This document shows, in pieces, positions 14,076-38,083 of a stretch of 64,000 bases of DNA. The notes below the pieces were generated by a model that saw only the letters and a list, made by a program, of their open reading frames with translations, was not told the origin of the DNA and searched no databases. How positions within the stretch are numbered: position 1 is the stretch's first letter; each line of letters opens with the position of its first letter. The position numbers and the translations under genes are program-made. This DNA is from Streptomyces asoensis. Lineage in GTDB: Bacteria > Actinomycetota > Actinomycetes > Streptomycetales > Streptomycetaceae. Location: positions 8,928,001 through 8,992,000 of the forward strand of contig NZ_CP049838.1 in the NCBI RefSeq assembly GCF_013085465.1, given 5' to 3'.

Positions 14076-14082
14076 GTCTGGA

Positions 14083-14113
14083 ACGCTACGGATTGGAGTG
14101 CACTCGAAGTCAA
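14083..14113 (-). promoter_or_regulatory. MerR-type promoter of the SDR gene (19-bp spacer), leaderless start
   Basis: On the minus strand, TTGACT (14113-14108) and TAGCGT (14088-14083) are 19 bp apart, the over-long spacing typical of promoters that need a MerR-family activator to twist the DNA. The spacer holds the palindrome GAGTGCACTC (14096-14105), extended by flanking TT and AA. The expected transcription start, about 7 bases after the -10, falls on or next to the ATG at 14075. No MerR gene lies in the window, so the activator acts from elsewhere. Confidence 0.68.
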
Positions 14114-14135
14114 GTGCTCAGGTGCGAGCGCCTGA

Positions 14136-14176
14136 GCCGTGCGCGTCCGGGCCGTGCGGGTCCGGGCCGTGCGGAC
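14136..14176. repeat. 15-bp tandem repeat, 2.7 copies
   Basis: The unit GCCGTGCGCGTCCGG (14136-14150) is followed by a copy with one change (14151-14165) and a partial third copy (14166-14176). It lies between the SDR promoter and the end of the predicted small RNA. No function can be assigned. Confidence 0.6.
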
Positions 14177-14179
14177 AGA

Positions 14180-14342
14180 GGAAAGCCCCGACCGGACGGG
14201 GGAATCACGGTCGGGGCGGTCTGAGTGTGGGCGCGGATGGCGGTCGCCTCTCGGCGAAAGGCTCCACAGGGCTTCAGCCGAACGATCGTCCCTGTGGGCA
14301 GAAGGTGAGGCCCGGGGACACTGTCCCATCCGCACCCACGAA
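14180..14342 (-). ncRNA. Predicted structured small RNA, about 160 nt
   Basis: This gene-free stretch, read on the minus strand, has all the parts of an independent small RNA. A sigma-R-like promoter ends just before it (14349-14375). A long closing stem pairs 14339-14326 with 14240-14227 (13 of 14 positions), enclosing a hairpin at 14297-14264 (CCACAGGG with CCCTGTGG) and a short one at 14256-14245 (CGCC with GGCG). It ends with a 10-bp GC-rich terminator hairpin and TTTCC. An alternative small hairpin, GGGAC with GTCCC (14315-14327), competes with the closing stem. No credible reading frame fills it. The identity is unknown; its length resembles that of Streptomyces sRNAs such as scr5239, but no sequence match was checked. 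Confidence 0.66.
14185..14217 (-). terminator. Rho-independent terminator of the predicted small RNA
   Basis: A perfect 10-bp stem, GCCCCGACCG (14185-14194) with CGGTCGGGGC (14208-14217), has a 13-base loop. Read on the minus strand the stem is followed directly by TTTCC, giving the normal polarity for termination of leftward transcription. Confidence 0.75.
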
Positions 14343-14348
14343 TGATTC

Positions 14349-14375
14349 AACGGAGAACTTCCTATGGGTGTTCCC
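14349..14375 (-). promoter_or_regulatory. Sigma-R-like promoter for the small RNA
   Basis: On the minus strand, GGGAAC (14375-14370) and GTT (14351-14349) are separated by exactly 18 bp, matching the published Streptomyces sigma-R pattern GGGAAY-N18-GTT. The start would fall near 14343-14340, right at the base of the long closing stem. Sigma-R responds to disulfide stress, so the RNA could be stress-induced. Confidence 0.5.
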
Positions 14376-14442
14376 GGGTCCGCGGCCACGCGCGGTGATG
14401 CGTGTCACCCGCCCCGAGGGGGCCCGCGCGGATCACCGGCCC

Positions 14443-15099
14443 TCAGGCCAGCGGGCTGTCCGACAGGGACGCCAGGAGCTCGGCGGGGTCGGCGTACACC
14501 GCTTCCGCGCCCGCCTCCAGCAGGTCGGCGCGGGGGATGCCGCCGCACAGGACACCCACGCAGCGCACCCCGGCCCGGCGGCCGGCCCGCATGTCCCACA
14601 CGGTGTCCCCGACGAACACCGCCCCTTCGGCGGGCGCCCCGGCCAGCTCCAGCGCGTGTTCCACGGGTTCCGGAGCGGGCTTGCCCTCCTCGACGTCGTC
14701 CGCGCTCGCGGTCGCGGCGATGACGTCGTCGGCGTCGATGGCGCGCCGCAGGGCGGACAGCTCGGCCCCGCTCGCGGAGGTGGCGAGCACGACCGTCCAG
14801 CCGTCGTCGTGCAGCCTCCGCAGCAGCGGACCGGCGTCCCGCAGCGCCGGCAGCCGGTCGAAGTACTGCCCGTAGAGAGCCTTGTGGGCGGCGCCGATCC
14901 GGGCGTCCTCGTCCTCGTCCCGGTCGTCGCCGAGCAGATGGGCGATGAGATCGTCGGATCCCAGCCCGACCGCCCGGTGCACGGCGTGCATCGGGACCCG
15001 GTGGCCCGCCTGCCGGAAGGCCTCCCACCAGGTGGTGACGTGCAGGTGGTTGGTGTCGACCAGGGTGCCGTCGACGTCGAACACGGCGGCGCGTGTCAT
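14443..15099 (-). CDS. HAD family hydrolase (beta-phosphoglucomutase/phosphatase type)
   Basis: 218 residues from the ATG at 15099, six bases after AAAGGA; a GTG one codon earlier is possible. HAD motifs are present: FDVDGTLVD (I, nucleophile Asp near residue 8), LATSASGAE (II), the lysine in EEGKPAPEP (III) and FVGDTVWDMRAGRRAG (IV). The helical cap sits between motifs I and II, as in the beta-PGM/phosphoglycolate phosphatase group. The probable activity is a small-molecule phosphatase or mutase. It shares direction with the PHP gene upstream, 36 bp away. Confidence 0.9.
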   Translation of the reverse strand: MTRAAVFDVDGTLVDTNHLHVTTWWEAFRQAGHRVPMHAVHRAVGLGSDDLIAHLLGDDRDEDEDARIGAAHKALYGQYFDRLPALRDAGPLLRRLHDDGWTVVLATSASGAELSALRRAIDADDVIAATASADDVEEGKPAPEPVEHALELAGAPAEGAVFVGDTVWDMRAGRRAGVRCVGVLCGGIPRADLLEAGAEAVYADPAELLASLSDSPLA

Positions 15100-32259: not shown

Positions 32260-32559
32260 GGTCGCGCGGTATCGCGCCTCCGGGGACGGCCGGGCTGCTG
32301 CTGGCCGCGCGCCGGAAGAGCGGTGGCGGACGTCAGCGGCAGGAGGGCGTCGAATGTGGGCATGGCCGGATCCTGCGGGTGAAGGTGGGGCGGCGGCAAC
32401 CGGTTTTTCCGCCGCCGTCCCAGGAGTGACGCTTCGGGGCGAATGGTTCCGGCCGAATCGCCCCATTGGTCGATCTGGCCGAACTGTGCGTCGCCCTATA
32501 GGTGCCCGGGGCATCCGCTGAAGATCGGCATGACGCACTCTTCGTCTGCGAGGTCACCC
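32260..32559. other. Gene-free region upstream of lysE and the P450 relic
   Basis: About 300 bp without a supported gene. It contains a hairpin GGCGGCGG (32389-32396) with CCGCCGCC (32409-32416) and must hold the divergent lysE promoter. No operator with clear symmetry was found. Confidence 0.45.
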
Positions 32560-36067: not shown

Positions 36068-38083
36068 ATGACGCAGTTGATCGACAAGCGAGACCTGGGT
36101 TACGACCGGCTCGCCCGGCTCCCGGGCGCCGAGGCGTTCCTGGCCGACACCGATCGTGTGGCGGAGTCGGTGCGCCACACCCTCATCGCCGAGGAAGGCA
36201 AGGTGAACCGCTTCACCGGCCACCTGACCGAACTACGGGTGGAGGGCGCACCGGCCGGCCTCGCCGAGCGGGCAGGCGCCGAGTCCACCGACGGCGACTA
36301 CATCGCCAGGGCGAAGGAGTACCTCTCCTCGGTCTCGGCGGCGATCGGCTTCGCCGCCGGAGAACCCGCCGAGTTCGAAGCCGATCCGAAGGTGACGGTC
36401 ACGAGCGGCGGCATGCACGTGGTCAGCCTCCAGCAGACACTCAACGGCATCGATGTGTGGGGCATGGCCCCCAAGGTGTGGCTGCGCGAGGACGGCACGG
36501 TCGACCGGGTCGTCGGCGACACGGTGAGTGTGCCGGGCAACGTCCCCACGATGCCGACGGTGCCGGTCGAGACGGCCCTGGCCGCCGGCGCCGCGAAGGC
36601 CGCCGAGTCGGTCACGCTCGAAGGCCTGCTCGGTACCGACGAGCTGCCGGCCCTGGACGTCTCGGACGGCTTCCGCCGGCTGAGCTCCCAGGCGCGCAAC
36701 GACCAGCCGATGACGTTCGACAAGGGCGCCTTCGACGAGGCGATCCCCGGTCGGCTGGTGTACTTCTACATGGGCGACACCGTCCGTCTCGCCTGGTCGT
36801 TCAGGTTCTCCCGGGCGCAGGGGGCGGTGCAGTACCACGCGCTGGTGGAGGCCGACGGGATGACGGCGGACCGGGCGGCGCCACAGGTCCTGTACCTCCA
36901 GGACCTGACGAACCATGTCGTCGGAGGACTGGTGTTCCGGCAGAACCCGGTCGAGACCGGGTTCGCCCTGGCCTCCTTCCCGCTGCCGCTGAGCGACTAT
37001 CCGGTCGCACCGCCGTCGACGCCGATGCCCGGGTTCCCCGGCCCGTGGGTGGAGCGGCAGAACGGAAGTGTGGCCACCGTCGGGAACAATGTGCAGGCCG
37101 TCGACGGGGACACCGGCGAAAGCTTCAAGGTCGACGTCGACGCGGCGGGCAACGGGGTGTTCGCCCCGAACCCCGACACGCCGGAGCAACTCGTCACCAA
37201 CATCTTCTTCTTCTGCAACTACATGCACGACTTCTTCGTGATGCTCGGCTTCAACGAGGAGCACGGCAACTTCCAGACCGTCAACTTCTCGGGCCTGGGC
37301 GTAGGTGCCGACCCGGTCGTCGCCCAAGCCCATCCCAGGCCGGTCTTCGGCACGGCCAACATGCTCACGCGCGCCGACGGTCTGGCAGCGGAGATGAACA
37401 TGGGTCTGGTCGCCGACACCGGAAGGCACACGGCCAACGACGCGCACGTGGTGCGCCACGAGTTCGCGCACGGCGTGACCAACCGGCTGGTCGGCGGTCT
37501 GCACGATGCCAACGGTCTGCGCGAGGAGCAGTCCAGGGCGATGGGCGAGGGCTGGTCGGACTTCTTCGCGCTCACCATCCCCAACTTCTCCCAGGAGCGG
37601 GAGCACACCGTGGTCGGCGACTGGGTGGTCGACGACCCGGCCGGCATCCGCCAGCGGCCCTACGACGACCGGTACCCCGGTGGCTTCGGGGACATCGGGC
37701 AGGTCAAGGGCGGGCTCGACTACACGAGGATCCACAACGTCGGCGAGATCTGGTGCGCCGCGCTCCTGGAGATGACCCGCCGGATCAGCGCGGAGCTCGG
37801 CAGCAAGGAGCGCGGCTACCGGGTCGCCTGGCAGGCCGTCGTCGACGGGCTGAAGCTCACGCCCAAGAACCCGTCCCTGCTCACCGCCCGCGACGCGATC
37901 CTGCGGGCCCTGAAGGACCTCAAGGGCACGTCGTTCACCGCGGCCGAGTACACCGAGGTCCGGACGGCGGCCTGGGGATCGTTCGCCCGGTACGGCATGG
38001 GCTTCGACGCCTTCTGTCCCAACGCGTCCTTCGTCGGCTGCCGGGCCGGCAGTCAGCCGCCCCCGGCCGGACACGAGGACTGA
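36068..38083 (+). CDS. M36 family (fungalysin-like) zinc metallopeptidase without signal peptide
   Basis: 671 residues. An N-terminal FTP-like propeptide region (VTVTSGGMHVVSLQQTLNGIDVWGMAPKVWLREDGTVDRVVGDTV) is followed by the catalytic domain: VRHEFAHGVTNRLVGG with the HExxH zinc site near residue 464 and GEGWSDFFALTIPNF with the third ligand Glu near 494. NIFFFCNYMHDFFVMLGFNEEHGNFQ is a strong M36 hallmark. Fungalysins are normally secreted with a signal and propeptide; here the N-terminus MTQLIDKRDLGYDRLARLPG has none. AGGAG sits at 36055-36059. It is co-directional with the HAD-M28 gene and ends 2 bp from the convergent tetR. Confidence 0.9.
   Translation: MTQLIDKRDLGYDRLARLPGAEAFLADTDRVAESVRHTLIAEEGKVNRFTGHLTELRVEGAPAGLAERAGAESTDGDYIARAKEYLSSVSAAIGFAAGEPAEFEADPKVTVTSGGMHVVSLQQTLNGIDVWGMAPKVWLREDGTVDRVVGDTVSVPGNVPTMPTVPVETALAAGAAKAAESVTLEGLLGTDELPALDVSDGFRRLSSQARNDQPMTFDKGAFDEAIPGRLVYFYMGDTVRLAWSFRFSRAQGAVQYHALVEADGMTADRAAPQVLYLQDLTNHVVGGLVFRQNPVETGFALASFPLPLSDYPVAPPSTPMPGFPGPWVERQNGSVATVGNNVQAVDGDTGESFKVDVDAAGNGVFAPNPDTPEQLVTNIFFFCNYMHDFFVMLGFNEEHGNFQTVNFSGLGVGADPVVAQAHPRPVFGTANMLTRADGLAAEMNMGLVADTGRHTANDAHVVRHEFAHGVTNRLVGGLHDANGLREEQSRAMGEGWSDFFALTIPNFSQEREHTVVGDWVVDDPAGIRQRPYDDRYPGGFGDIGQVKGGLDYTRIHNVGEIWCAALLEMTRRISAELGSKERGYRVAWQAVVDGLKLTPKNPSLLTARDAILRALKDLKGTSFTAAEYTEVRTAAWGSFARYGMGFDAFCPNASFVGCRAGSQPPPAGHED

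Follow-up and report, generated by a model that had tools for sequence, protein, structure and literature searches.

A conserved structured RNA with a SigR-type promoter in Streptomyces asoensis and other Actinomycetes

The current analysis indicates that an intergenic element of Streptomyces asoensis, situated in a window of 64,000 nucleotides (the whole stretch of DNA that was analyzed), represents one copy of a conserved and apparently unregistered family of structured RNAs. The element is probably a stand-alone gene whose product, a small RNA (sRNA) with extensive structure, is trans-encoded and belongs to a class-wide family; it would be transcribed by SigR under stress and may bind a conserved partner. 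At the level of sequence comparison, the RNA is characterized by its fold, a SigR-type promoter in most copies, a terminator in Streptomyces, independence of the downstream gene, and the presence of multiple copies. The initial annotation had proposed that the minus strand encodes a hitherto unannotated sRNA, equipped with a SigR-type promoter, a closing stem, and a terminator of its own, and this proposal was corroborated by conservation and strong covariation; a CRP-like box, further copies in this genome, and the spread across the class came in addition. With an RNA that has a SigR-type promoter and is found in Streptomyces as well as in Nocardioides, Cellulomonas, and relatives of Mycobacterium, the thiol stress response would gain an RNA arm.

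The window is located at 8.93-8.99 Mb of the 10.04-Mb chromosome, and the RNA resides in the 367-bp gap (14076-14442 between script-chosen coding frames) that had been recognized between an SDR gene (PF00106, E 1.7e-23) and an HAD gene (PF00702, E 1.2e-29), both of them confirmed by Pfam. According to its anatomy and conservation, the putative sRNA gene (14180..14342, minus strand) would specify a transcript of about 160 nt that runs to the terminator and probably starts near 14340. All elements named in the following are on the minus strand. A CRP-family-like palindrome GTGA-N6-TCAC (GTGACACGCATCAC; 14395..14408) lies 20 nt upstream of GGAAC, followed by the SigR-type -35 element GGGAAC (14370..14375) and the -10 region GTTGAA (14346..14351), whose GTT (14349-14351) is placed exactly 18 nt after GGGAAC, as originally read. 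The closing helix P1 pairs 14326-14339 with 14227-14240; the 14-base stem thus stands, but the mismatch that had been ascribed to it is a U-G wobble. Helix P1b, with the 5' strand G, bulged U, G, U (14318..14321) and the 3' strand 14242..14244 directly after P3, closes a three-way junction, from which the junction strand J1/2 (CCCCGGGCCTCA; 14306..14317) leads to P2. The two internal hairpins were found where they had been placed, i.e., P2 at 14261-14299 (5' strand 14290..14299, 3' strand 14261..14271), which contains the inner stem-loop P2b (TCGTTCGGCTGA; 14274..14285), and P3 at 14245..14256 (CGCC-GAGA-GGCG with a GNRA-type loop). Equally correct was the 10-bp hairpin of the intrinsic terminator (14185..14217, loop TGATTCCCCCGTC) with its 3' TTTCC tail (14180..14184).

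The 166-nt minus strand of 14180-14345 has a predicted folding energy of -88.2 kcal/mol (z = -5.18, 0 of 200 shuffles as good), and the plus strand of 14180-14375 reaches z = -2.88 (1 of 200 shuffles as good). Promoter, conserved fold, terminator, and intergenic position, which served as criteria for an sRNA gene, are combined in the window copy and in the Streptomyces core copies. The ordered set had been regarded as hard to explain by chance, and it is indeed far above chance expectation, because it recurs in many genomes with compensatory changes.

According to the alignments, the fold is composed of a long closing helix, a three-way junction with the almost invariant strand CCCCGGGNYYMA, and two hairpins. 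In the model-fitted alignment A5 (97 distinct sequences, 91.7% of cells paired), 604 of 2949 cells were changed on both sides compared with 177 (sd 11) after shuffling and 70-131 with slid partners, and both-sided change was found in all 14 P1 pairs. Since A5 leans to the structure, the MAFFT alignment A1 (39 sequences), which was not fitted to the fold, represents an independent test; it contained 131 both-sided cells versus 43 in shuffled alignments and 23-41 with slid partners, and C-G, U-A, and G-C exchange freely at P2 pairs. Ranks 1-19 of the APC-corrected mutual information were occupied by pairs of the drawn helices, and the next one, the undrawn pair 32:167, extends P1b. The latter helix had been seen in the sequences and its exchanges (U-A, C-G, A-U, and G-C) had been counted before it entered the model. 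The comparison of related genomes for compensatory change, a check that had been set in advance, hence revealed conservation and strong covariation. As regards coding potential, the translations were viewed by eye only for the window RNA, and the copies differ by indels within the fold.

Near-constant across the copies are CCCCGGG with a pyrimidine-rich stretch and an A as well as P3 with a GNGA-type loop. The CCCC of J1/2 is present in 179 of 181 copies (8 of 189 were dropped), and the bases 3' of CCCCGGG differ between lineages. A pseudoknot of J1/2 with P2 or P3 was rejected for lack of a covariation signal, although J1/2 is too invariant to provide one. Three forms of the RNA were distinguished, a long one with a core of about 123 nt, a long one with expanded P2 (family f19), and a short one of about 90-100 nt that lacks P2b. 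A shape switch had been suggested on the basis of a second hairpin (GGGACAGTGTCCC; 14315..14327) that is incompatible with P1b and with the inner part of P1. This alternative hairpin is present in the window, but the switch is no family feature, as the hairpin is largely confined to copies with the Streptomyces-type P2 sequence (60 of 72 versus 3 of 113 others, 4 of 189 copies having been dropped); it could be a folding intermediate.

The comparison with the covariance models of Rfam 15, including 6C and several scr RNAs, revealed no match at the gathering score in the whole window and none at E<=10 for 14080-14460, and in 12 loci with other copies (11 from other families, 1 from the same genus) only rRNA and tRNA were detected at Rfam gathering scores. 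No prior description of the RNA was found in literature that comprised article texts without supplementary sRNA tables; an unnamed RNA-seq entry may exist in the sRNA list of some species. The accessible portions of PMC8632094, PMC6429828, PMC9205884, PMC4340878, PMC4921905, PMC6767563, PMC4046766, PMC10033298, PMC11678152, PMC6344877, PMC9130861, PMC8388888, PMC11109978, and PMC3765725 do not describe it. With 6C RNA it shares the occurrence in actinobacteria and C-rich single strands, but 6C, as presented in the available part of its description (PMC8388888), consists of two stem-loops with at least six C each, whereas the RNA reported here forms a three-way junction in a long helix.

The distribution was assessed at several levels. 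A DNA search of 61 genomes gave matches in 44 of them, which were in part only short flanking matches; copies from the same genus shared 77-95% identity in the aligned part, and other families contained the core as well. The first covariance model, built from 39 of 43 copies (L047, L038, L019 [partial], and L004 [duplicate core] were left out), detected the RNA in 74 of 296 class genomes and 37 of 114 genera. A second model from 98 copies recovered it from 100 of 150 Streptomyces genomes, of which 73 had one copy and 27 had two to seven; the per-genome table comprised 157 matches. In the 50 genomes without a match, the task of the RNA may be dispensable or the copy may have been missed by the search. 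The second model found the RNA in 18 of 396 genomes of a phylum sample, a run that scored only nine first-look candidates per genome and will therefore miss copies; two weak matches outside the class (E 0.002 and 0.008) were not trusted. A pattern of promoter plus fold, applied to named genomes, yielded at least 118 stretches. The genera among the matches listed were Streptomyces, Micromonospora, Actinoplanes, Actinomadura, Nonomuraea, Saccharopolyspora, Lentzea, Amycolatopsis, Geodermatophilus, Modestobacter, Nocardioides, Cellulomonas, Mycobacterium relatives, and others. This pattern finds copies in genomes where the respective stretch is now blank.

SigR/RsrA is a textbook redox switch, and the home genome has a match to RsrA (TIGR03988, E 2.7e-28). 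Such matches were present in 289 of 296 class genomes, 241 of them over the curated cut-off, and the seven genomes without a match all lack the RNA; this co-occurrence says little because RsrA is found nearly everywhere. GGAAY-N18-GTT was detected in 56 of 82 upstream regions (88 contexts minus 6 without the core by the search expression) compared with a mean of 0.03 and a maximum of 1 in shuffled sequences. With N16-20, the motif was present in 60 and absent from 22 of the 82 regions; other spacings occurred 0-3 times each, except N11 (18 times), which reflects an inner GTT of the Streptomyces spacer. Among 108 distinct copies that the models had found in unselected genomes, GGAAY-N17-19-GTT preceded 81 (77 with N18; 0 in one shuffle each), i.e., 48 of 53 Streptomyces copies and 33 of 55 others, with the two groups split by hand from kinship. 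The Streptomyces count may lean upwards, because the first copies came from a query that included the promoter stretch. Eighty loci obtained with the promoter-plus-fold pattern were kept out of this evidence since they had been selected by the promoter, and they were included in the counts of CRP boxes (159 copies), neighbors, and terminators. Copies of families f3 and f15 lack the motif; other sequences at this place look sigma-70-like by eye, and these copies may use another sigma factor.

The sigma-R pattern recognized initially fits the published SigR motif GGAAT-N18-19-GTT (available text of PMC9205884) and is kept in the 33 non-Streptomyces copies mentioned above. A SigE-type promoter was rejected, since the window has a spacer of 18 and GTT versus the 16-17 bp and the CGTC-type -10 element given for SigE of S. 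coelicolor (accessible part of PMC6767563). Induction of the RNA by thiol stress is predicted from the promoter sequence. The RNA would thereby join the regulon for thiol-oxidative stress that is governed by SigR in Streptomyces and by SigH-type factors in other actinobacteria, and whose targets are protein genes, with no sRNA family of such kind, in the portion of PMC9205884 at hand; this source also lists SCO6404, a gene of unknown function, as the top-expressed SigR target in vitro in S. coelicolor. A small RNA arm in the stress regulon of an ECF sigma factor has a counterpart in enterobacteria, but the RNA reported here would belong to another sigma group and has a conserved three-way junction; to our knowledge, no Hfq is to be expected for it. 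The enterobacterial examples are the sigma-E-dependent sRNAs MicA and RybB.

A second regulatory signal was found upstream of the promoter. The palindrome GTGA-N6-TCAC, with at most one mismatch, is located there in 74 of 159 copies, compared with a mean of 2.9 and a maximum of 9 after shuffling. The distance from the end of the box to GGAA is 9-11 or 19-22 nt in 73 of the 74 cases, which corresponds to one or two helical turns. Among the copies that were not selected by their promoter, the phased CRP-like box is characteristic of Streptomyces (of the copies with promoter, 33 of 48 in this genus carry it versus 2 of 33 others); Actinoplanes and Micromonospora loci of the promoter-selected set carry a box at 10-11 nt. 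The window box conforms to GTG(N)8CAC, the motif of GlxR, and, apart from one position at which A replaces G, to GTG(N)6GNCAC, the motif of Crp in S. coelicolor (both motifs from the accessible part of PMC10033298). The box thus resembles Crp/GlxR boxes and is a candidate Crp site.

SigR freed from RsrA under thiol or electrophile stress would transcribe the RNA, and a CRP-family protein that binds at a distance of one or two helical turns upstream would tune the transcription of most Streptomyces copies. The RNA may then act in trans, with P1 perhaps serving as a clamp of variable sequence that holds the three-way junction and with the junction strand CCCCGGGNYYMA perhaps being offered to one conserved partner. 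A single partner is suggested by the invariance of this strand across lineages in which its surroundings change; since it hardly varies, a protein or a ligand would be the most likely partner and RNA targets the second choice. Stress would raise the dose of the RNA, several gene copies would raise it further, and the partner would be bound, titrated, or modulated. We consider it a more speculative idea, worth keeping in mind, that the RNA is aptamer-like or protein-capturing and represents a core output of thiol stress, in which SigR (plus Crp in Streptomyces) leads to binding of a partner by the CCCCGGGNYYMA strand. This partner might be a ligand, a protein of the stress response or of the ribosome, or the RNA itself, two copies of which could associate through the CCCGGG palindrome. 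If true, the regulon would act by RNA structure and dose rather than by mRNA base pairing.

Two further ideas were rejected. Bacterial Y RNA, which acts with Ro60 (TROVE), combines a closing stem with an apical module and has a link to stress, and in these respects the RNA is similar. Among 150 Streptomyces genomes, however, TROVE and the RNA occur independently of each other, with TROVE present in 55 of 100 genomes with the RNA and in 26 of 50 without it (odds ratio 1.13, p 0.73). Mimicry of rRNA was considered based on two 9-mers, one of them CCCGGGCCT, that the window RNA has in common with a 16S/23S stretch of one other genome; they were judged to be chance matches.

The strongest rival is a base-pairing sRNA whose C-rich single strands, i.e., J1/2 and the Streptomyces terminator loop, bind G-rich, Shine-Dalgarno-like stretches of mRNAs, a reading that we regard as possible yet doubtful. 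A terminator-like hairpin follows 112 of 187 copies versus 20 of 187 shuffled sequences. With another score, used without a shuffled control, terminators were found after 46 of 47 Streptomyces core copies, 8 of 12 paralogs, 72 of 103 other long forms, and 6 of 25 short forms. The Streptomyces stems show compensatory exchange of A-U to G-C (24 and 27 of 59), and although the stem covaries, CCCC is kept in the loop of 43 of 46 Streptomyces core copies, which speaks for base pairing and makes this loop a possible extra seed in the Streptomyces lineage. C-rich loops have also been noted among conserved Streptomyces sRNAs, with mRNA pairing left open in the available text (PMC3765725). On the other hand, such a terminator loop was found in none of 8 Streptomyces paralogs and is rare elsewhere (11 of 72 other long and 1 of 6 short forms, without shuffled control), and J1/2 would be very invariant for a strand with drifting mRNA targets. 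The complement of the terminator loop matched the genome 53 times with at most one mismatch, one match being the terminator itself, compared with 6 matches of a reversed control that is biased by the rarity of TA; 30 matches were viewed for stem context, and the 7 loci viewed for neighboring genes had no clear start-site pattern.

Less probable still is an RNA of the 6S/Ms1 type, which would sequester RNA polymerase in stress by a long, DNA-mimicking hairpin. The closing helix is long, variable in sequence, and provided with an internal loop, the RNA is free-standing and actinobacterial like Ms1/6S RNA (scr3559), and an HAD gene adjoins the window RNA as one adjoins Ms1 (accessible part of PMC9130861). 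However, this HAD type heads only 8 of 146 upstream neighbors. Streptomyces Ms1 is about 230 nt long, located mid-chromosome, and was found by structure and gene synteny (same portion of PMC9130861), whereas the present RNA has a core of 90-160 nt with an invariant junction strand, is often found in several copies per genome, lacks a fixed neighbor, and is located on plasmids and close to chromosome ends as well. Identity with Ms1/6S RNA is accordingly disfavored by the position of the window, the varying neighbors, and the shorter length.

The genomic surroundings argue for a stand-alone RNA. Downstream neighbors are on the same strand in 75 and on the opposite strand in 71 of 146 cases and fall into 88 sequence clusters; this variety and the equal use of both strands distinguish the RNA from a leader. 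Upstream neighbors (91 clusters) are on the same strand in 92 cases and on the opposite strand in 54, so that some copies could arise by read-through. The neighbors were derived from a GC-based gene-calling script, with a Pfam check on only eight proteins. Since the neighbors vary and the RNA is provided with its own terminator, the position of the window copy between an SDR and an HAD gene is most likely incidental. We therefore see hardly any room for a cis-acting riboswitch or attenuator of the downstream gene (in the window, the SDR gene). The three-way junction, the invariant joining strand, and the GNRA-type hairpin are indeed reminiscent of riboswitch aptamers, the largest downstream cluster, SDR-like, comprises 24 of 146 neighbors, 23 of them on the same strand, and four f3 copies lie upstream of an HAD-family gene of the Hydrolase_6 kind. 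In contrast to riboswitch aptamers, the RNA is equipped with both a promoter and a terminator, is not linked to any particular downstream gene, and has no Rfam match, and in the 46 Streptomyces core copies mentioned above the fold is directly followed by a strong terminator without overlap; a riboswitch for the neighboring gene was rejected on account of the orientation and diversity of the neighbors. It is just as improbable that the RNA is a 3'-UTR element or a processed terminator of the upstream gene; the excess of upstream neighbors on the same strand would fit, but in 81 of 108 copies the promoter motif separates the RNA from that gene, and the upstream neighbors are spread over their 91 clusters.

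Copies of the RNA also recur within genomes and are found on plasmids. The home genome contains five matches, the window copy and two pairs that are mirrored 32-37 kb from the chromosome ends. Among the plasmid records, 51 of 72,556 had a match (43 from Streptomyces, 6 from Rhodococcus, 1 from [Kitasatospora], and 1 from Nonomuraea, the latter being a chromosome-sized record). For 38 of the 40 plasmid matches listed, no gene was listed under the match in a gene table that holds no RNA genes, two records were without annotation, and the six records examined were all linear. No copy was found in phages or, with a pattern that misses some forms, in viral contigs. A mobile or selfish repeat, conserved by spreading and not by host function, would account for up to seven matches per genome, tandem copies, mirrored copies near both ends of the home chromosome, and plasmid records, but it is very unlikely, as compensatory substitutions between distant families require selection for the fold, constant neighbors and phage or viral-contig matches were not found, and the promoter is kept with the RNA.

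Several individual loci deserve mention. The end copies of the home chromosome are located at 32401-32525 and 36602-36727, with mirrors at 10011776 and 10007574 (L031, L052-L055). In L031, the promoter GGGAAT-N18-GTT precedes both units, one of which lies beside a FolD-type gene (PF02882/PF00763) and the other downstream of an L31-type gene (PF01197). A gene for a ribosomal protein L31-like protein is the shared upstream neighbor in the Streptomyces loci L017, L022, L031, and L069, with a Pfam check for L031; this may simply reflect common descent. Tandem copies whose starts are about 180-880 nt apart are present in L091, L102, L103, L113, L177, and L195, and a SigR-type promoter precedes each unit in the first four of these loci. 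In L105 (5432-8737, family f39), a copy is located upstream of a gene for a molybdopterin oxidoreductase (formate-dehydrogenase-like) with an in-frame TGA that possibly encodes selenocysteine, and a similar split was seen in L107. Finally, a short-form copy in L086 (6640-7178, family f22) is convergent with an Lsr2 gene (PF11774, Pfam), an arrangement that, judged by eye, is the same in L089 of this family.
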